From NCBI RefSeq assembly GCF_900564145.1, contig NZ_UOOB01000001.1, forward strand, positions 806,001-870,000: 64,000 bases of DNA, in the 5' to 3' direction. The notes beneath the pieces were generated by a model. It searched no databases and was not told the origin of the DNA. It saw only the letters and a program-made list of their open reading frames with translations. The translations under genes and the position numbers were made by a program. Source of the stretch: Comamonas sp. lk (GTDB taxonomy: Bacteria; Pseudomonadota; Gammaproteobacteria; Burkholderiales; Burkholderiaceae_C). Below, piece by piece: positions 46,484-56,469 of this stretch. Numbering within the stretch: position 1 is the stretch's first letter; every line of letters starts with the position of its first letter.

Positions 46484-47149
46484 ATGACTGCCAACACACC
46501 CCCCTCATTCCTCAGCCGCATCGCCATCGCGATCGGCAGCTTTTTTGCCATCCTCGGCAACGGCCGCCTGGCCGCCGATGTGAACCGCGTACGCGCGGGC
46601 GAAGCCTTTGCCGCCGACGTGGCGCCCAAGGAAGTGCGTGTCGAAGTTCCCGTAGAGAAAATCGTCGAAGTCCGCGTGGAAGTCCCGGTCGAGAAGATCG
46701 TGGAAAAAACAGTGGAAAAGCGCGTCGAAGTGCCGGTGGAGCGACTGGTTGAAAAGACCGTGGAAGTGTCCACCGATACCGCAGCCCTGCAGTTGCTGGG
46801 CCTGATGCAGCGCGAAGCACGCTTTGTGGATTTCGTCCAGGAAGACGTGGCGCCCTATACCGATGCCGAAATCGGCGCCGCCGCCCGTGTGGTGCATGAA
46901 GGCTGCCGCAAGGTGCTGCGCGAGCATTTCACCATTGCTCCCGTGCGCTCCGAGGCCGAAGGCTCCCGCCTCACGCTGCAGGCCGGCTTTGACGCTTCCG
47001 CCGTGCGCCTGACCGGCAATGTGGTCGGCCAGGCCCCGTTCACCGGCACGCTGTCCCACCGTGGCTGGCAAGTCACCGACGTCAAGCTGCCCCAGCTGAC
47101 CGACATCCAGGCCGCCAAGGTCATCGCCCAAGCCGAAGTGGAGCTGTAA
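46484..47149 (+). CDS. DUF2760 protein with VEVPVEK repeats, first gene of an Hsp70 cassette
   Basis: 221 residues in three parts. Residues 9-27 are hydrophobic (FLSRIAIAIGSFFAILG) and could anchor the protein in the membrane. Residues 51-95 are a repetitive stretch of alternating Val and charged residues with VEVPVEK/R three times and VEK repeated. Residues 96-221 are the DUF2760 domain (LQLLGLMQREARFVDFVQED, VTDVKLPQL). Function is unknown. DUF2760 genes are typically followed by the two Hsp70-like genes found here, and the next start is only 2 bp after this stop, so the product very likely works with them, perhaps as client, anchor or co-chaperone. Confidence 0.8.
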   Translation: MTANTPPSFLSRIAIAIGSFFAILGNGRLAADVNRVRAGEAFAADVAPKEVRVEVPVEKIVEVRVEVPVEKIVEKTVEKRVEVPVERLVEKTVEVSTDTAALQLLGLMQREARFVDFVQEDVAPYTDAEIGAAARVVHEGCRKVLREHFTIAPVRSEAEGSRLTLQAGFDASAVRLTGNVVGQAPFTGTLSHRGWQVTDVKLPQLTDIQAAKVIAQAEVEL

Positions 47150-47151
47150 GC

Positions 47152-49134
47152 ATGAATATGTTCTCTTCGATTGCTGCCTCCGGCAATGCTGCGCAGACTC
47201 CCGCCGTGGATGCTGCAAATACCGTAGCTGCGAGCGCACAAGCAGCAAGCACTACAGGCCAAAACCGCTCTGAATCTGCGGCGCAGTTCAGCATCGGCAT
47301 CGACCTGGGCACCACGCATTGCGCGCTGTCCTATGTGGACAAGACTGCCAGCGACGGCGAGAAAATCGTCCAAGGCGTGCTGGACATTCCCCAGCTCTCG
47401 GCTCCGGCCAGCGTCGAGGCCCAGCCTCTGTTGCCGTCCTTTCTCTACCTGCCGCATGAAAGCGAGCTGAGCGAGGCCGAGCGCAACTTGCCCGGTGCGG
47501 CAGCGCAGGATTTCATCGTCGGTGAATTCGCCCGCAGCCGTGGCGCAGCCACACCGATTCGTCTGGTCAGCAGCGCCAAAAGCTGGCTTTGCCACCCCGG
47601 CGTCGATCGCCGCTCGCCCTTGCTGCCAGCCGATGCGCCCGAGGAAGTCAGCCGCATCTCGCCGCTAACGGCCTCTATCCGTTATCTCGAGCATCTGCGC
47701 TGGGCCTGGGAACAAGCCCACCCCGAGGCTCCGTTTGCCCAGCAAGACATCACCGTCACCATTCCTGCCTCCTTCGACCCGGCGGCGCGCGAGCTGACGG
47801 CCGAGGCCTGCAAGGCTGCCGGTTTCCACAATCTCACCTTGCTGGAAGAACCCCAGGCCGCGCTTTACAGCTGGATTCAGGCCAGCGGCGGCGACTGGCG
47901 CAAGCAGGTCAACAACGGCGACGTGATTCTGGTCGTCGACGTGGGCGGCGGCACCACCGATTTGTCGCTGATCGCCGTGCGCGAACGCGAAGGCAATCTG
48001 GAGCTGCAACGCATTGCCGTGGGCGAGCACATCTTGCTCGGCGGCGACAATATGGACCTGGCCCTTGCCTATGGCGTGGCCCGCAAGCTGGCGGCCGAGG
48101 GCAAGCAGCTGGACGCCTGGCAAACGCGCGCCCTGGCCCACGGCTGCCGCGCTGCTAAGGAGCAGCTGCTGGCCGACGAAAACCTGCAAGCCGTGCCCGT
48201 GGTCGTGCCCAGCCGTGGCAGCAAGCTCATCGGTGGCAGCATTCGCACCGAAGTCACGCGCAGCGAAGTGCTGGCCATGCTGGTTGAAGGTTTCTTCCCC
48301 AAGGTCGCCGTCAGCGCCAAGCCCCAGACCCGCGCCCGCGCAGCTCTGACACAGCTGGGCTTGCCTTATGCGCAAGACGCAGCCGTTACCCGCCATCTGG
48401 CCGCCTTTCTGAGCCGCCAGGTCAACGCACTGGCCGAGATCGACGGCCTGAACGCCGGGCAGGTGGATGGCTCCACCTTCCTGCACCCCACGGCCATTCT
48501 GTTCAATGGCGGCGTGCTCAAGGCCGCGCAGATCGAACAGCGCATTCTGGAAGTCATCAATGGCTGGCTGGACGAAGAAGCTTGCGAGCCGGCCCGCCTG
48601 CTGGACGGCGCCAACCTCGATCTGGCCGTTGCCCGTGGCGCGGCCTATTACGGCCACATCGCCACCAGCGGCCGTGGCGTGCGCATCCGTGGCGGCACCG
48701 CACAGTCCTATTACGTGGGCGTGGAGAGCAATATGCCGGCCATCCCCGGCATGGAGCCGCCCCTGTCCGCCCTGTGCCTGGCACCGTTCGGCATGGAAGA
48801 GGGCACGGAAGTGGCCTTGACCGATCTGGAGCTGGGCCTGGTCGTGGGCGAGCCCGTGCGCCTGCGCTTCTTTGGCTCCAGCGTGCGCCGCGCCGATCAG
48901 GTCGGCACCATGCTGGATTTCTGGGGGCCCGAGGAACTGGTGGAGTTGCAAGAGATCGAGCTGAACCTGCCTGCGGCTGGCCGTGCGGCCGGTGAAGTCG
49001 TGCCCGTGACCCTGGAAGCCCGCGTCACCGATATCGGCACGCTGGAACTCAATGCCGTGCCCGTGGGTGGAACCGACCGCTGGAAGGTGGAGTTTGATGT
49101 GCGGGCCGAGACTTCGGCGGAAGCTGCCGAGTAA
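47152..49134 (+). CDS. non-canonical Hsp70-family protein A
   Basis: 660 residues. A 40-residue low-complexity N-terminus (partly encoded by a dispersed repeat) precedes an Hsp70 nucleotide-binding domain: phosphate-1 loop IGIDLGTTHCALS (about 47-59), VTIPASFDPAAREL, phosphate-2 VVDVGGGTTDLSL (about 261-273), and the adenosine motif ILFNGGVLKA (about 449). The last 120 residues look like a short beta-rich domain with no helical lid, so classical peptide clamping as in DnaK is doubtful. It begins 2 bp after DUF2760. A terminator follows, so gene B may be expressed separately. No DnaJ or GrpE is nearby. Confidence 0.88.
   Translation: MNMFSSIAASGNAAQTPAVDAANTVAASAQAASTTGQNRSESAAQFSIGIDLGTTHCALSYVDKTASDGEKIVQGVLDIPQLSAPASVEAQPLLPSFLYLPHESELSEAERNLPGAAAQDFIVGEFARSRGAATPIRLVSSAKSWLCHPGVDRRSPLLPADAPEEVSRISPLTASIRYLEHLRWAWEQAHPEAPFAQQDITVTIPASFDPAARELTAEACKAAGFHNLTLLEEPQAALYSWIQASGGDWRKQVNNGDVILVVDVGGGTTDLSLIAVREREGNLELQRIAVGEHILLGGDNMDLALAYGVARKLAAEGKQLDAWQTRALAHGCRAAKEQLLADENLQAVPVVVPSRGSKLIGGSIRTEVTRSEVLAMLVEGFFPKVAVSAKPQTRARAALTQLGLPYAQDAAVTRHLAAFLSRQVNALAEIDGLNAGQVDGSTFLHPTAILFNGGVLKAAQIEQRILEVINGWLDEEACEPARLLDGANLDLAVARGAAYYGHIATSGRGVRIRGGTAQSYYVGVESNMPAIPGMEPPLSALCLAPFGMEEGTEVALTDLELGLVVGEPVRLRFFGSSVRRADQVGTMLDFWGPEELVELQEIELNLPAAGRAAGEVVPVTLEARVTDIGTLELNAVPVGGTDRWKVEFDVRAETSAEAAE
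47223..47265. repeat. dispersed repeat copy inside Hsp70-like gene A (N-terminal linker)
   Basis: GTAGCTGCGAGCGCACAAG ... AAGCACTACAGGCCAAAAC fits the family layout. It is in frame and encodes an Ala/Ser/Thr/Gln-rich segment (about residues 24-38) just before the nucleotide-binding domain. Confidence 0.5.
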
Positions 49135-49157
49135 AGCCGCTTAGCCGTTTGATTGCA

Positions 49158-49198
49158 AAAGCCCGCTGACCGGATGGTTGGCGGGCTTTGTTGTTTTT
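49158..49198 (+). terminator. intrinsic terminator after Hsp70-like gene A
   Basis: AAAGCCCGC / GCGGGCTTT stem (49158-49166, 49181-49189) followed by GTTGTTTTT. It separates the two Hsp70-like genes. Confidence 0.82.
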
Positions 49199-49209
49199 GG
49201 CTGTTTTAT

Positions 49210-49245
49210 GCCTCTAGCGCTGATGCAGAAAGCGCTAGGAGCTAT
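49210..49245 (-). repeat. dispersed repeat copy between the two Hsp70-like genes
   Basis: Read on the minus strand: ATAGCTCCTAGCGCTTT ... AGCGCTAGAGGC. The core CTAGCGCT (49214-49221) and AGCGCTAG (49231-49238) form a hairpin. This is the cleanest copy in the window. Confidence 0.7.
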
Positions 49246-49284
49246 GAGTCTTGATTGGATTCTGCTGTGGCGATGTTGCCTGAG

Positions 49285-49359
49285 GCCGGGACTTCGCCCC
49301 GGCGGGCGACTCACTTTCTGGTTCCAGAAAGTAGGTCGGCAGGCGGGCCGAGACCCGCC
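49285..49359. repeat. cluster of three perfect hairpins between the Hsp70-like genes
   Basis: GCCGGG/CCCGGC (49285-49303), the 20-base palindrome ACTTTCTGGTTCCAGAAAGT (49313-49332) and GGCGGG/CCCGCC (49342-49359) follow one another. The context GGCGGGCGACTCACTTTCT resembles an intergenic repeat I have seen in beta- and gammaproteobacteria. The remaining 140 bp to gene B hold its promoter, not identified. Confidence 0.55.
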
Positions 49360-49501
49360 CTCTGTCTCAAACCTCAGTCGATGGAGCTCTATCCCCTGTG
49401 AATCCCTTAAACACGGCCACAGGCGGAAAGAACTGCACTCCGCAGTCCTTGCTGCCAATTGTTACGATCAGCCACCTCCGTAGCGTATCGTCCCTGGCTT
49501 C

Positions 49502-52405
49502 ATGACTGTCACTTCCACTCAGCCCGCTTATATAGTCGGCATCGATCTCGGCACCAGCCACACGGTCGTCGCCAGCGTTTCGCTGACCGGTGCGGCGGGC
49601 GATATTGTGTTACTCGACATTCCCCAGCGCAGCGCCGCAGGCGAAGTCGTGGCCCAGCCCCTGCTGCCTTCGGTGCGCTATCAGGCGGCACCTGGCGAGC
49701 TGGGTGATAGCTGGCAGCAGCCCTGGCCGCCGCAGGGCGCAGATGAGGCCGCGCCCGCCGTCATCGGCCGCTGGGCGCGAGATTTGGGCACGACCGTGCC
49801 TGGCCGTCTGGTGGCCAGTGCCAAAAGCTGGCTCTCGCATACCGGCGTGGATCGCACTGCGCCCATACTGCCCTGGGGCGCTGGCGAAGAGGTGACCAAG
49901 GTCTCGCCGCTGGCTGCGTCAAGCGCGTATCTGGCTCATGTCAAAGCGGCCTGGGATAAGGTTCACCCTGAAGCGCCGCTGCAGGCGCAAACCGTGGTGC
50001 TGACCGTGCCCGCCTCGTTTGACGAAGGCGCGCGCGCGTTGACGCTGGAGGCGGCGCAACTGGCCGGCTTGCCCGGTGTGCAACTGCTGGAAGAGCCCAA
50101 GGCCGCGTTTCACGACTGGCTGCTGCTGCAAGGCGAGCAGCTGGCGGCCCAACTGGCCGACAGCCGTCTGGTGCTGGTGGTAGACGTGGGCGGAGGCACC
50201 ACCGATTTGACGCTGATCCGCGTGGAGGCCGACCCCGAAGGGGGCCTGCCCACGCTGACCCGCACCGCCGTGGGCGAGCATTTGATGCTGGGCGGTGACA
50301 ACATGGATCTGGCGCTGGCGCATCAGCTTGAATCCGCTTTTGCGGGTGAGGGTCAGAAGCTGCCTGCACAGCGCTTTGCCCAACTGGTTCAGCGCTGCCG
50401 TATGGCCAAGGAGCAATTGCTGGCTGCCAATGCGCCGGCCAGCGTTACCGTCACCTTGCTGGGCGGCGGCAGCCGCCTGCTGGCCAAGACCCAGTCCGTC
50501 ACGCTGGCCAGGGAGCAAGTGCAGCAACAGGTGGAGGAAGGATTTTTGCCTGTCGCCCAGATTGGCGATGTGCCCGGCAAGCGCCAGGGCGCTCTGCGCG
50601 GCTTTGGTCTGCCGTATCCGGCCGATGCGGCCATCACCCGGCATCTGGCGCAGTTTCTGGCCCAGCATGCGGTTGGCGCTGATTCCCGCGACTTGCCCGA
50701 TACCGTGCTGCTCAACGGCGGCGTGTTCCATGCGCATGCCCTGGCCGAGCGGCTCACGCAGCAGCTGTCCGCCTGGCGCGGCAGCCCTGTACGGGTGCTG
50801 CACAACCCGCACCCGGACTGGGCCGTGGCACGCGGTGCTGCGGCCTATGGGCTGGCGCGGGCTCAAGCAGATTCGATCAAAAATCTGCCTGCAACCCAAA
50901 CCGGTCAAGCGCAGGATGCTATTAAATCGGCTGTGTCTGTGGCACGCCTGCCGCAGATTGGCGGCGGCTCGGCGCGCAGCTATTGGCTGCTGCTGCCCGG
51001 CAAAACCGGCGCCAGACCGCAAGGCCTTTGCCTGCTGCCGCGCGGCACGCAAGAGGGCGTGCGCATAGTGCTGACGGGCCGCCGCTTTGCCCTCAAGTTG
51101 GGCCAGGCCGTGCGCTTTAATTTGCTGGCCAACAGTCGCAGCCACACACCAGCGCAAGCCGGGCAGATTGCCGAGCTGGATGGCGAGGGCTGGGTGGAGT
51201 TGCCGCCGCTGTCCATGGTATTGCCCGCGCCGCCTTCAGCGGAGGGCGGCAGGGACAAGGCACAGGTGGAAGTGCAGCTGCAGGCCAGCATGACCGAGGT
51301 GGGTACGCTGGAAGTGCGTTGTGTGGCCGTGCAGGATGCTGCGCAATCCTGGTTGCTGTCTTTTTCGGTACGCGGAGCGGCGACTGGTGATGATTCAAAT
51401 TTGATAGCTGTTGGCGCAGATGAATCAAGCGCTGCAGGTCTCAAAGACTCCAACTCTCAAGACGCCCGGTTGCCGCAGGCGCTGGCCTTGATAGAGCGCA
51501 TCTTCGGCACGCAGGCGCAGGACGTGACGCCCAAGCAGGTACGCCAGTTGCGCCAGTCGCTGGAGAAAATCTTGGGCCCGCGCGAGGCCTGGGATGTATC
51601 GCTGCTACGGGCCATGTTCGATGCCTTGCTGGCCCGTGCCAAACGCCGCCGTCGCACGGCAGACCATGAGCGGGTATGGCTCAATCTGGCAGGCTGGTGC
51701 CTGCGCCCGGGTGTGGGTGCGCAGCTGGATGGCTGGCGCATGGCCCAGGTCTGGGCCTTGTATCCCCAGGGCCTGGGTTACGGCAAGGAAGCGGCCAACT
51801 GGACCGAGTGGTGGGTGTTCTGGCGCCGTGTGGCGGCAGGGCTTGATGAGGCGCAGCAGATGGAGCTGCTGGAAGATGTGGCCGGCCAGATGCAGAAAGC
51901 CGTGCAGCAAACCGCCCGATCCGGTGGCAAATCCAGTCACGGCAGCTATGACGACATGCTGCGCCTGTTTGCTGCCATGGAAGCCGTGCCCTGGCAGTAC
52001 CGCCAGGAAATGGGGCGGTGGATGCTGCAGCGCCTCGAGCGCGAAGGCGAAACCGTGCAGACCTGGTGGGCGATCGGCCGTCTGGCCGCGCGCCAGTCGC
52101 TGGCTGCCAATGCGCATCTGGTGATGCCGCCCGAAGCCGCGCAGGAGTTTCTGGACGCCACGCTGGCCCAGGACTGGCGCAAAAACGAAACCGCCATGTT
52201 CGCCGCCGTGCAAATGGCCCGCATGACCGGCGACCGCGCCCGCGATCTGCCCGATGCCGTGCGGGAGCAGGTGCTGGAAAAAATGCGCTCCAGCGGCGCG
52301 CCGCAGCGCTGGATAGAGCTGGTGGAGCAGGTGGTGCAGATGGAAGCCGAGGATCACAAACGCAGCCTGGGCGACAGCCTGCCGCCGGGGCTGGTGCTGC
52401 TGTAA
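49502..52405 (+). CDS. non-canonical Hsp70-family protein B with DUF3731-type C-terminus
   Basis: 967 residues. The nucleotide-binding domain has VGIDLGTSHTVVAS (about 13-26), VLTVPASFDEGARAL, VVDVGGGTTDLTLI (about 225-238) and VLLNGGVFHA (about 401-410). A beta-rich domain spans about 500-625 and is paralogous to that of protein A. From about 655 on is a large helical region (LIERIFGTQAQDVTPKQVRQL, ERVWLNLAGWCLRPGVGAQLDGWR, WTEWWVFWRRVAAGL) matching the DUF3731 type. Two segments, about residues 457-475 and 631-649, are encoded by dispersed repeats and sit at domain borders. Its biochemical role is unknown. Confidence 0.87.
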   Translation: MTVTSTQPAYIVGIDLGTSHTVVASVSLTGAAGDIVLLDIPQRSAAGEVVAQPLLPSVRYQAAPGELGDSWQQPWPPQGADEAAPAVIGRWARDLGTTVPGRLVASAKSWLSHTGVDRTAPILPWGAGEEVTKVSPLAASSAYLAHVKAAWDKVHPEAPLQAQTVVLTVPASFDEGARALTLEAAQLAGLPGVQLLEEPKAAFHDWLLLQGEQLAAQLADSRLVLVVDVGGGTTDLTLIRVEADPEGGLPTLTRTAVGEHLMLGGDNMDLALAHQLESAFAGEGQKLPAQRFAQLVQRCRMAKEQLLAANAPASVTVTLLGGGSRLLAKTQSVTLAREQVQQQVEEGFLPVAQIGDVPGKRQGALRGFGLPYPADAAITRHLAQFLAQHAVGADSRDLPDTVLLNGGVFHAHALAERLTQQLSAWRGSPVRVLHNPHPDWAVARGAAAYGLARAQADSIKNLPATQTGQAQDAIKSAVSVARLPQIGGGSARSYWLLLPGKTGARPQGLCLLPRGTQEGVRIVLTGRRFALKLGQAVRFNLLANSRSHTPAQAGQIAELDGEGWVELPPLSMVLPAPPSAEGGRDKAQVEVQLQASMTEVGTLEVRCVAVQDAAQSWLLSFSVRGAATGDDSNLIAVGADESSAAGLKDSNSQDARLPQALALIERIFGTQAQDVTPKQVRQLRQSLEKILGPREAWDVSLLRAMFDALLARAKRRRRTADHERVWLNLAGWCLRPGVGAQLDGWRMAQVWALYPQGLGYGKEAANWTEWWVFWRRVAAGLDEAQQMELLEDVAGQMQKAVQQTARSGGKSSHGSYDDMLRLFAAMEAVPWQYRQEMGRWMLQRLEREGETVQTWWAIGRLAARQSLAANAHLVMPPEAAQEFLDATLAQDWRKNETAMFAAVQMARMTGDRARDLPDAVREQVLEKMRSSGAPQRWIELVEQVVQMEAEDHKRSLGDSLPPGLVLL
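50870..50926 (-). repeat. dispersed repeat copy inside Hsp70-like gene B (end of ATPase domain)
   Basis: Minus-strand reading: AATAGCATCCTGCGCTTGAC ... GCAGGCAGATTTTTGATC. In frame; closely resembles the pxpBC copy at 28971-29025. Confidence 0.6.
51392..51450 (+). repeat. dispersed repeat copy inside Hsp70-like gene B (before the DUF3731-type region)
   Basis: TTTGATAGCTGTTGGCGC ... AATCAAGCGCTGCAGGTC, a well-preserved copy in frame. It encodes a Ser/Asp/Ala-rich linker between the beta domain and the helical C-terminus. Confidence 0.65.
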
Positions 52406-52420
52406 ATAAATAGGATTTAT

Positions 52421-53302
52421 ATGAGAAAAATAGATGAAGAAATTAGTGAGAATTATAAATTTCACATAGAGCATCTTCCGGAAATAAAAAAATCAATTGA
52501 TTTTCTTGCTAAAGAAATTAATTCTTTTATAGATGTTATTGATAAATCTCCCGGTTTTACTGCATTGGTGCAGAGGCTTCAGGTAAATCATTTTTTGTGT
52601 GTGATTCATGAAATGAACTCTGCAATTTACAATTCAATAATAACAGGAAAATATACAGCTGCTGAGTCATTGTCTCGAGTCTCATTGGAGATGTCTGCTA
52701 ATTTGTTATATATATTAGGTGGGGATAAGCATGGCAGGTCTAAAGGGTATTTAAAGTATCATTTAGATCATAAAAAGAAAAATTTTCATAAATGGGATAA
52801 TTTTTCGAATGAAAATAATAACGAATATATTTCGCAAAAAATTAAAGAAAAAATTAAACAATTTCAAGATATAGAAGATGTTTTTTATGGGCTAACGGAT
52901 GCGCCTTTTGAGGAGTGGCCTAAATCTATTTTTGAAAAATTTGAAAAAATTGGGCATAAGGAAGCATATAGAACTTTGTATTCAACAGCTTCGGATGCTG
53001 TTCATCTTTTAGGAGATGATGTTTTGAATGTGGTGCTGTGTAACTTTATTCCTCAAGATGAGCAGAAAGGTGTTATAAAAAACATATTGAACGAAAAAAT
53101 AAGCTCTGTTATATATTTTTTAACTTATTGTTTGGTTTTTCAATTTGAAGGCGTGTGTAAAGTTATGGTGAGGATGTCGTTTGATAAAAATAGGATAAAT
53201 AAAATAGAAGAAGCTAAAAAAGTTTTGAATGAGATTTTGTTGATTCATGAAGTTGATGAAATATATGCTCACGAAGCTCTTATGAAAAATAAAACTCTCT
53301 GA
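52421..53302 (+). CDS. AT-rich hypothetical protein, DUF5677-like, probably acquired
   Basis: 293 residues, mostly helical and Lys/Asn/Ile-rich. Base composition is strikingly AT-rich with codons such as AAA, ATA and TTA that its neighbours avoid, so recent horizontal acquisition is very likely. The pattern ESLSRVSLEMSANLLYI, then KGYLKYHLDHKKK, then YRTLYSTASDAVH resembles DUF5677-family proteins; I am moderately sure. There is no signal or membrane segment. It starts 15 bp after Hsp70-like gene B and carries its own terminator overlapping its stop. Function unknown; a defence or stress role is only speculation. Confidence 0.75.
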   Translation: MRKIDEEISENYKFHIEHLPEIKKSIDFLAKEINSFIDVIDKSPGFTALVQRLQVNHFLCVIHEMNSAIYNSIITGKYTAAESLSRVSLEMSANLLYILGGDKHGRSKGYLKYHLDHKKKNFHKWDNFSNENNNEYISQKIKEKIKQFQDIEDVFYGLTDAPFEEWPKSIFEKFEKIGHKEAYRTLYSTASDAVHLLGDDVLNVVLCNFIPQDEQKGVIKNILNEKISSVIYFLTYCLVFQFEGVCKVMVRMSFDKNRINKIEEAKKVLNEILLIHEVDEIYAHEALMKNKTL

Positions 53303-54971: not shown

Positions 54972-55176
54972 GGTCGGTCTCCAGAAATGAGGTGTCTGCC
55001 AGTGTAGGGCGCGCGCCGGTCTGCAGCCGCGGCCTGAATTCCCTGAAGGTGAGCGTTCATCCTGCTTGCCGACTGGCAGTCGCCCTGCATTGGTGTAACA
55101 AGGTCGTTCGCTGGCCTGAGGTGGCATGAAATGTGCTGCTCGTTTCAGGTATCAGCATGACAACAAGCATTACCCC

Positions 55177-56469
55177 ATGAAAACCCCTCTGCACTACCTG
55201 GTTGCGGCAAGGCAAAACGAAATTGCCGAGCTGGAGCAGCTCGGCAGCGCTTGCGCCCTGGTCAGTCGCATGTCGCAGCTGATCCATGCTCTGCAAAAAG
55301 AGCGGGGCCTGTCCAATATCTTTCTGGCCAGCGAGGGCGCGCAGGGCCGGGAGGCGCTGGATCAGCACCAGCCTTGGGTGCAGCAGGCGATCGCCGAGCT
55401 CAGTGCAACGCTGGAGGCCTTCAGCCTGGGCCTGTCCGGCGCGCATGGGGCGCGGCTTTTCAGTGCGATTGCCTATGCGCTGCAAGGAATCGAGGCCTTG
55501 CCGCTGCTGCGGGCGCACCGGGATGGACAGCGGCTGACGCCCGAGGAAAGCACGCAGGCCTATATGCGTCTGGTCGCCGGCTGTTTGACCGTGGTCTTCG
55601 AGGCCGCCGACAGCGCCTGTGATCCCGATATCTCCCGCACACTGGTGGCCATGTTTCACTTCATGCAGGGCAAGGAGCTGACAGGCCAGGAGCGGGCCGC
55701 AGGCGCGGCCGCATTTGCCAGCGGGGTTTGCAACGCGGCACGCCAGCACCACTGGCTGCATCTGATCGAGTCTCAGGACAAGTGCTTTCAGGTATTTGCG
55801 GATTTCGCATCGCCGGCGGTGGCGGCCTGCTGGCAAACGCAAAACCAGTCCTGCGCGGATATGGCGGTGATCGAACGTTTGCGCCGTATTGCCTGCACCA
55901 GCCCGCCGGGCAGCACGCTGGACTGGGCGCTCAACAGCGTCTGGTTTGAAGCCTGCTCGCTGAGGCTGGATGCCATGCACCAAATTGAAGCCCTGCTGGC
56001 GCAGGAGCTGGAGAGCCTGTGCGGGCAAAAGCTGGCGCTTGCCCGCACCAGCCTGTCTCAGCAGTTGCAGCGCTTGCATCTGCCGGACGGCATGCCAGAC
56101 CCGGCTCCAGGCCAGTTGGCGGACGGCATGCAGTTCTTCAACGGGCCTGCGCCCGGCATGCCCTGGCCCATGGACCTGGGCTGCGGGCCGCAGCTGGGGC
56201 GCTCCATTTTGTCTCTGGTGCAGGAGCAGGCGCAGCGCCTGCAGCTGATGCAGACGGAAATCGACAAGGCGAGAACCTCCTTGAAGGAACGCAAGACGAT
56301 TGAGCAGGCCAAGGGCGTGTTGATGAGCTACCGGCAGATGAGCGAGAGCGATGCCTACAAGCTCATACGCCAGACCGCCATGAACCAGAACCGACGCATG
56401 CTGGACGTGGCCGAGGCCGTGTTGGCGACGGTGGATTTGCTGCCTGCGGGAGCTGGCACCAAAGCGTAG
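55177..56469 (+). CDS. nasR: NasR-like nitrate/nitrite-sensing ANTAR antiterminator
   Basis: 430 residues. An N-terminal all-helical NIT (nitrate/nitrite-sensing) domain (about 20-270; LVSRMSQLIHALQKERGLSNIFLAS) is joined to a C-terminal ANTAR RNA-binding domain (about 355-420; KERKTIEQAKGVLMSYRQMSESDAYKLIRQTAM). In Klebsiella, NasR binds nitrate or nitrite and then tandem hexaloop hairpins in the nas leader, preventing termination. Here the gene sits directly before the nitrate transporter operon, and both downstream operons carry matching leaders. ATG 55177 gives the family N-terminus; the frame from 55126 is upstream leader. Confidence 0.92.
   Translation: MKTPLHYLVAARQNEIAELEQLGSACALVSRMSQLIHALQKERGLSNIFLASEGAQGREALDQHQPWVQQAIAELSATLEAFSLGLSGAHGARLFSAIAYALQGIEALPLLRAHRDGQRLTPEESTQAYMRLVAGCLTVVFEAADSACDPDISRTLVAMFHFMQGKELTGQERAAGAAAFASGVCNAARQHHWLHLIESQDKCFQVFADFASPAVAACWQTQNQSCADMAVIERLRRIACTSPPGSTLDWALNSVWFEACSLRLDAMHQIEALLAQELESLCGQKLALARTSLSQQLQRLHLPDGMPDPAPGQLADGMQFFNGPAPGMPWPMDLGCGPQLGRSILSLVQEQAQRLQLMQTEIDKARTSLKERKTIEQAKGVLMSYRQMSESDAYKLIRQTAMNQNRRMLDVAEAVLATVDLLPAGAGTKA

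Follow-up and report, generated by a model that had tools for sequence, protein, structure and literature searches.

A DUF2760 protein and two atypical Hsp70s: a widespread bacterial gene trio and candidate membrane-proximal Hsp70 system

In the abstract of PMC4753570, a working Hsp70 is described as being triggered by a J-protein and reset by an exchange factor, and GrpE is named as the single type of exchange factor that bacteria were known to have as of 2015. Here we report on three genes in a 64,000-nucleotide stretch of Comamonas sp. lk (contig NZ_UOOB01000001.1; the whole stretch is called the window, and positions are counted within it), which encode a DUF2760 protein (PF10816), an Hsp70 without a lid (Hsp70a) and a larger Hsp70 paralogue ending in a DUF3731 domain (PF12531; Hsp70b). 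As far as the open-access literature shows, the trio is a real, widespread and undescribed Hsp70 system: we found no open-access main text naming DUF2760, DUF3731, PF10816 or PF12531, and no title or abstract start on the trio in the open-access literature on atypical or lidless Hsp70s.

Among described proteins, DnaK and HscA (PF00012) share with the trio Hsp70s a nucleotide-binding domain, in which the catalytic positions examined are kept, and a collinear profile alignment, but Hsp70a has neither the lid nor the VLLL linker, carries Glu at the position of Asn170 and has a C-terminal domain that is not recognised as that of DnaK, and the trio has its own partner, DUF2760. A pair of Hsp70 paralogues of which the larger has an extended helical C-terminal part is also found in the eukaryotic Hsp110 and Hsp70, a likeness drawn by features rather than by direct comparison; the helical part of Hsp70b is ARM/HEAT-like. 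The Armadillo exchange factors HspBP1, Fes1 and Sil1 differ in that the solenoid is here fused to an Hsp70, and the likeness of DUF3731 to the HspBP1 type is generic, HspBP1 not being among the 50 Foldseek matches listed. J-domain proteins share with DUF2760 a proposed role as Hsp70 partner, but DUF2760 belongs only to its own Pfam family, has no HPD motif in the window protein and yields a model without a solved relative. YegD-type proteins are, like the trio Hsp70s, atypical bacterial relatives of Hsp70, but NCBIfam NF008673, which we take to be the YegD model, scores only 33-34 bits on the trio Hsp70s against a cut-off of 331. A short Hsp70-like open reading frame (ORF) of 436 amino acids (aa) was seen elsewhere in the genome.

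The initial annotation had described the trio on one strand, with gaps of 2 base pairs (bp) between DUF2760 and Hsp70a and 367 bp between Hsp70a and Hsp70b, and ORFs and Pfam agree with it. The features are as follows (all on the + strand; pLDDT, predicted local distance difference test).

46484..47149, +, DUF2760 protein, 221 aa (PF10816, E = 6e-55; AlphaFold2 mean pLDDT 82.9, residues 101-200 at 94-98)
46508..46558, +, DUF2760 N-terminal helix, residues 9-25, weakly hydrophobic here and strongly so in about half of relatives
46628..46768, +, charged spacer of DUF2760 from helix to core, with a VEVPVEKIVE-type repeat (low model confidence)
46772..47146, +, DUF2760 core, a helical hairpin plus small beta part (model and family alignment)
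47126..47146, +, DUF2760 C-terminal tail AQAEVEL, a candidate docking peptide (commonest family form APAEVEL; tails of 95 proteins)
47152..49134, +, Hsp70a, 660 aa, lidless (ORF, Pfam and hhalign)
47284..48651, +, Hsp70a nucleotide-binding domain (ATPase positions conserved)
48670..48726, +, Hsp70a interdomain stretch GRGVRIRGGTAQSYYVGVE, which replaces the DnaK VLLL linker (alignment)
48649..49113, +, Hsp70a C-terminal beta-type domain with the invariant Cys, residue 542 (profile and conservation)
49158..49189, +, terminator-like hairpin and T tail in the gap from Hsp70a to Hsp70b (stem of 14 pairs, the longest found by the scan)
49502..52405, +, Hsp70b, 967 aa (39% identical to its paralogue Hsp70a across 649 columns)
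50933..51391, +, beta-type domain of Hsp70b, a homologue of the one in Hsp70a (hhalign E = 6e-35)
51659..52399, +, Hsp70b DUF3731, an ARM/HEAT-like helical solenoid (Pfam, model and fold comparison)

Co-occurrence of DUF2760 with the two Hsp70s

Of 299 evenly sampled Pseudomonadota genomes, 22 contain DUF2760; the beta domain was present in exactly those 22 (two copies in 21) and in none of the others, and DUF3731 in 21 of the 22 and nowhere else, the odd genome (G026) having its Hsp70a at a contig end. A second sample covered 145 genomes of the phylum of G317, a metagenome-assembled genome (MAG) of Verrucomicrobiota by its title (locus L079). Here DUF2760 was found in 24 genomes, all of which carry two beta-domain matches. 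The sole further beta-domain genome, G455, has a decayed copy in two fragments, interrupted by a stop (contig C104:30436-30789), and no DUF2760 match.

In six of these 24 genomes (G317, G318, G352, G408, G412 and G415), DUF2760 and Hsp70a are widely separated or sit on separate contigs. Contig breaks may account for some of these cases, but not for G412 and G408, in which the two genes are dispersed on one contig (with at least 257 kilobases between any two of the three genes in G412), and hardly for G317 and G318, because other genes are seen to either side at loci L079 and L089. Such co-occurrence of unlinked genes points to a joint function, not to hitch-hiking.

Gene order was likewise conserved. 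With one exception among 21 loci (the window and 20 others), DUF2760, Hsp70a and Hsp70b follow each other in this order on a single strand; in the exception, L060, only DUF2760 and Hsp70a were found. The titles of a further set of named loci, the best 80 of 571 confirmed relatives in a scan of species genomes, include Magnetococcales, Rhodospirillales, Acetobacteraceae, Bradyrhizobium, Verrucomicrobiota, Methylococcales, Burkholderiales genera, Desulfobacterales, Sandaracinus and Polyangiaceae, among others; by record title, the trio or its core pair occurs in Pseudomonadota, Verrucomicrobiota, Myxococcota and Desulfobacterales. Hsp70a adjoins DUF2760 in 78 of the 80 (the exceptions are L079 and L089), a count that includes some Hsp70a genes cut by a contig end, one split into two ORFs (L080) and three loci whose longest Hsp70a ORF reads upstream past DUF2760, and the two genes overlap by 4 bp in 42 loci. 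The neighbourhood is thus conserved beyond the genus, the check that the initial annotation had set, with near-perfect co-occurrence in both phylum samples even where the genes are dispersed.

The third gene is less constant. No Hsp70b match was seen in 34 of the 80 named loci, partly owing to contig ends, and a search of 21 genomes, drawn from 22 of these 34 loci, found DUF3731 outside the seen stretch in 15 and did not find it in six (five MAGs and one isolate, Thiohalocapsa marina, L112). These six have exactly one beta-domain match each, against two in five other genomes run alongside. Since they keep DUF2760 and Hsp70a, that pair looks like the core of the system and Hsp70b like an accessory. 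Taken together, we consider it very likely that the three gene products act together, and we consider it probable that DUF2760 is an obligate partner of Hsp70a.

Features of the DUF2760 protein and the Hsp70s

Family comparisons used protein sets from 101 loci (95 DUF2760, 89 Hsp70a and 59 Hsp70b), with L062, L064 and L065 (duplicates of L056, L061 and L060), contig-cut ORFs and weak matches left out; alignments and profiles comprised 92 of the 95 DUF2760 sequences, all 59 DUF3731 sequences and 48 of 88 beta domains. A protein search with the cut-out domain listed short proteins and fragments, with little beyond names.

The DUF2760 protein matches PF10816 with 184.7 bits (curated cut-off 25), its sole Pfam match at E 0.001, so that neither a J domain nor a GrpE family was seen, and the HPD motif is absent from the window sequence. 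Its core, modelled at high confidence as a helical hairpin with a small beta part, gave no usable fold match among solved structures, and 13 residues are invariant across the 92 aligned sequences. The exact C-terminus APAEVEL is found in 42 of 95 proteins, most others having a close form or one extra residue. We had considered DUF3731 as the binder of this tail; the idea was weakened because the tail is kept in the six genomes in which DUF3731 was not found (APAEVEL in five, TPAEVEL in one).

At the N-terminus, plain hydropathy on ORFs with possibly misplaced starts, without topology prediction, gave a peak of at least 2.0 in 50 of 95 proteins. The helix is strong in, for example, Magnetococcales, Verrucomicrobiota and methanotroph loci, and weaker in many Burkholderiales copies; in the window copy the 19-residue maximum is 1.59 and the hydrophobic moment at most 0.38. 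The membrane-anchored look ascribed to this protein in the initial annotation is weak for this copy and stronger in about half of the family. No signal peptide was seen when the Hsp70a and Hsp70b sequences were read by eye, which would place the DUF2760 core on the cytosolic side.

In the Hsp70s, Pfam placed PF00012 on part of the Hsp70a nucleotide-binding domain (E = 9e-16) and both PF00012 and PF12531 on Hsp70b. The nucleotide-binding domain aligned with a canonical DnaK/HscA profile at hhalign E = 4e-25, this profile being shallow, with just 20 DnaK and HscA proteins sampled from Burkholderiales. Seven ATPase positions, among them the equivalents of Asp8, Lys70, Glu171, Asp194, Thr199 and Asp201 (DnaK numbering, placed by motif), are present in 89/89 Hsp70a and 58-59 of 59 Hsp70b proteins, in keeping with the earlier statement that the nucleotide-binding motifs are retained.

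Hsp70a has no lid, as the protein ends after the C-terminal beta-type domain, and the C-terminal part of Hsp70b, aligned with the DnaK lid at hhalign E = 0.58, shows no helical lid either. Of the atypical, beta-rich and lidless ends described in the initial annotation, the missing lid stands and the beta-rich character is a judgement by eye. We dropped the claim that the beta domain is a plain DnaK substrate domain because, taken alone, it gives no significant alignment; its position and last motif suggest that it could be a very divergent one. The domain contains a Cys conserved in 89/89 Hsp70a (residue 542, 48775-48777) and 58/59 Hsp70b proteins (residue 510, 51029-51031), a possible redox switch. 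Beyond it, the helical addition to Hsp70b was confirmed as DUF3731: PF12531 covers residues 720-966 (E = 2e-90; 303.7 bits, cut-off 25), and the predicted all-helical model (mean pLDDT 90.4) resembles ARM/HEAT solenoids in a generic way, with nothing below E = 0.03 in Foldseek. DUF2760 and DUF3731 each have one match in the Comamonas genome.

These domain comparisons bear on the alternative that survives best, namely that the trio is no chaperone but a membrane-associated ASKHA ATPase with an assembly, reactivase or cytoskeletal function, comparable to diol-dehydratase reactivases, EutJ or FtsA/MreB, in which DUF2760 anchors one specific complex. Such a reading would explain why the recognisable Hsp70 likeness is confined to the nucleotide-binding part and why the beta domain is unlike that of DnaK by profile; both Hsp70s gave matches to MreB models and Hsp70a a weaker one to EutJ, and the strong N-terminal helix in about half of the DUF2760 proteins and the lack of general-chaperone partners among the scanned neighbours are consistent with it. 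We nevertheless consider it unlikely, though the most serious competitor, since HscA and DnaK models score above those of MreB and EutJ, the full-length alignment is collinear with DnaK through the end of the beta domain, and no client gene adjoining the trio is conserved across families.

A second alternative concerns the partners of the Hsp70s. Residues R167, N170 and D388-L392 of DnaK are given in PMC4022485 among those for DnaJ binding or ATPase stimulation. The alignment did not recover the Arg167/Asn170 pair of canonical chaperones: the Asn170 position is Glu in 89/89 Hsp70a and 59/59 Hsp70b proteins (148/148), and the Arg167 position in Hsp70a is Thr, Val or Ile in 84/89 and Arg in 2/89. 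Nor does the linker site have the hydrophobic DnaK-type sequence, reading V/I/M-R-I-R/K in the Hsp70a family and varying in Hsp70b apart from a conserved Ile. With these J-contact positions and the linker altered, DnaJ is an unlikely driver of Hsp70a.

Elsewhere in the genome, two full-length Hsp70 matches each adjoin a J-domain match, and we take this pair to be DnaK and HscA from their scores and neighbours. Together with the missing lid, VLLL linker and Asn170, their presence argues that the trio Hsp70s are not spare DnaK proteins. To this extent the reading of the initial annotation is partly supported, its third member not being strictly required. That no DnaJ or GrpE gene lies nearby also holds within its scope: the window contains no J-domain match of its own genome, and no GrpE or DnaJ family occurs among the nine neighbouring ORFs scanned by Pfam, the rest of the window being unscanned for GrpE. 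On balance we lean towards a system independent of DnaJ and GrpE.

We regard it as improbable that the trio comprises ordinary auxiliary heat-shock Hsp70s using the cellular DnaJ and GrpE, with DUF2760 as a loosely associated stress protein. In the genome, two J-domain matches do exceed the cut-off and a third, sub-threshold one adjoins the HscA-type gene, and Arg at the Hsp70b Arg167 position in 41/59 proteins would allow some J-protein contact. Sigma-32-like sites with at most two mismatches were found in 9/95 upstream regions versus 3.3 in shuffles, with one mismatch at L047 and L049, although the shuffle moved two-base blocks and the loci are related, so that no conclusion is drawn from this control. 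The invariant Glu, the lost VLLL linker and the strict co-occurrence with DUF2760 even where unlinked speak against this alternative, as does the lack of a sigma-32-like site upstream of the trio in its own genome. A phage-defence or mobile-element module is very improbable: the distribution is patchy and both ATPase domains weakly match the candidate defence model PDC-M61B, but that match spans about 100 residues of generic ATPase domain and DUF2760 has none, no PADLOC model matches across a whole protein, viral contigs and phage records hold no confirmed relative, 11 of 72,556 plasmid records carry one, and every positive genome in both phylum samples has one DUF2760 match.

A candidate machine at the cytoplasmic membrane

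We hypothesize, tentatively, that the trio encodes a dedicated membrane-proximal Hsp70 machine in which DUF2760 takes the J-protein role and Hsp70b is an accessory arm. The machine would work on the inner side of the cytoplasmic membrane, where the N-terminal helix would hold the cytosolic DUF2760 protein (probably just peripherally in the present genome) and the charged spacer would project its core. The conserved C-terminal tail may dock on Hsp70a, so that DUF2760 would fill the role of J-protein and client adaptor as seen for DnaK. Hsp70a would be the ATP-driven core, its cycling shifting the affinity of the C-terminal domain for a membrane-associated client. Hsp70b, presumably an ancient duplicate with the ARM/HEAT-like solenoid in the position of the DnaK lid, could serve Hsp70a as exchange factor, client holder or both, comparable to Hsp110 or HspBP1; an exchange-factor role as such we consider rather unlikely. 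Our confidence in the whole stays slightly under the midpoint because roughly half of the family, rather than the majority, has a clear hydrophobic anchor. Unlikely, in our estimate, is the fullest version, a DnaJ- and GrpE-free bacterial Hsp70 found in several phyla, with a membrane-held non-J activator, a tail-engaged lidless Hsp70, Hsp70b as the first non-GrpE exchanger and membrane-proximal clients.

Several observations weigh against the proposed machine. The window helix is only marginally hydrophobic, and the anchor count has the limits given with it. The beta domain alone aligns with the canonical DnaK/HscA profile at hhalign E = 0.18 and 0.12, its 48 profile members have no Pfam family in common, and its single PDB match has E = 1.6. 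The Arg in most Hsp70b proteins and the lack of a sigma-32-like site, both described above, count here too. Since Hsp70b lies downstream of a terminator-like hairpin, the trio need not be a single transcript; terminator-like sites in the region numbered 6 against a shuffled mean of 5.6. Over 56 loci, the three proteins have pairwise distances that correlate at 0.94-0.96, a figure obtained without a control protein that may reflect species divergence alone. Finally, the Pseudomonadota counts lack phylogenetic independence (8 of 153 genera), and profile A5 contains sequences from some of the genomes searched with it; for both reasons, the informative parts of the co-occurrence are the absences and the unlinked cases.

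Neighbouring genes and implications

No conserved fourth gene or client common across families was found beside the trio. Among the 21 loci, in a listing of clusters present in at least two families or with at least four members (smaller sharing within one genus being invisible), families had no neighbour cluster in common save generic ABC ATPases and other chance-like pairs. A survey of four ORFs per side around the 80 named loci, with clusters of at least three loci, gave one close and ordered neighbour, a small secreted protein of methanotrophs; the other clusters comprised generic superfamilies in varying positions, or reflected synteny between close relatives.

The methanotroph protein, apparently secreted and about 125 aa long, is encoded 0-33 bp upstream of DUF2760 in 12 loci (L095, L097, L110, L113, L122, L124, L126, L128, L133, L134, L135 and L139); two cysteines are invariant in the 11 aligned of the 12, and no Pfam match was obtained in the three tested. 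In five loci (L097, L110, L126, L133 and L139) an HtpX-type M48 protease gene lies two genes upstream of DUF2760, with Peptidase_M48 confirmed by Pfam on L110, the one locus of the five scanned. A role in membrane quality control would fit this linkage, which is limited to the methanotrophs and to that extent also counts against the proposed machine. At two further loci (L054, 5403-7313; L055, 5127-7109) a two-domain ABC ATPase, of ABC-F type by our reading and with two ABC domains by Pfam on L054, is encoded 4-22 bp upstream of DUF2760.

In the window, a DUF5677 protein (52421-53302, Pfam) starts 15 bp downstream of Hsp70b, and this family is not among the neighbour clusters listed for the 21 or the 80 loci; farther on, a nitrate/nitrite-sensing NIT domain is fused to an ANTAR domain (55126-56469, Pfam). 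A 91-bp piece of the 367-bp gap matched itself and two partial copies, that is, no abundant repeat, and in the same-genus relative L046 a 2,919-bp segment with long open frames lies between Hsp70a and Hsp70b. The best database match to the C-terminal half of Hsp70b, 99% identical, is named from Comamonas sp.

A widespread Hsp70 that lacks the canonical linker and Asn170 and is nearly inseparable from a tail-bearing partner is a natural test of the rule that Hsp70s work with a J-protein and an exchange factor, and the two-gene variant of DUF2760 and Hsp70a would be a minimal system for biochemistry.

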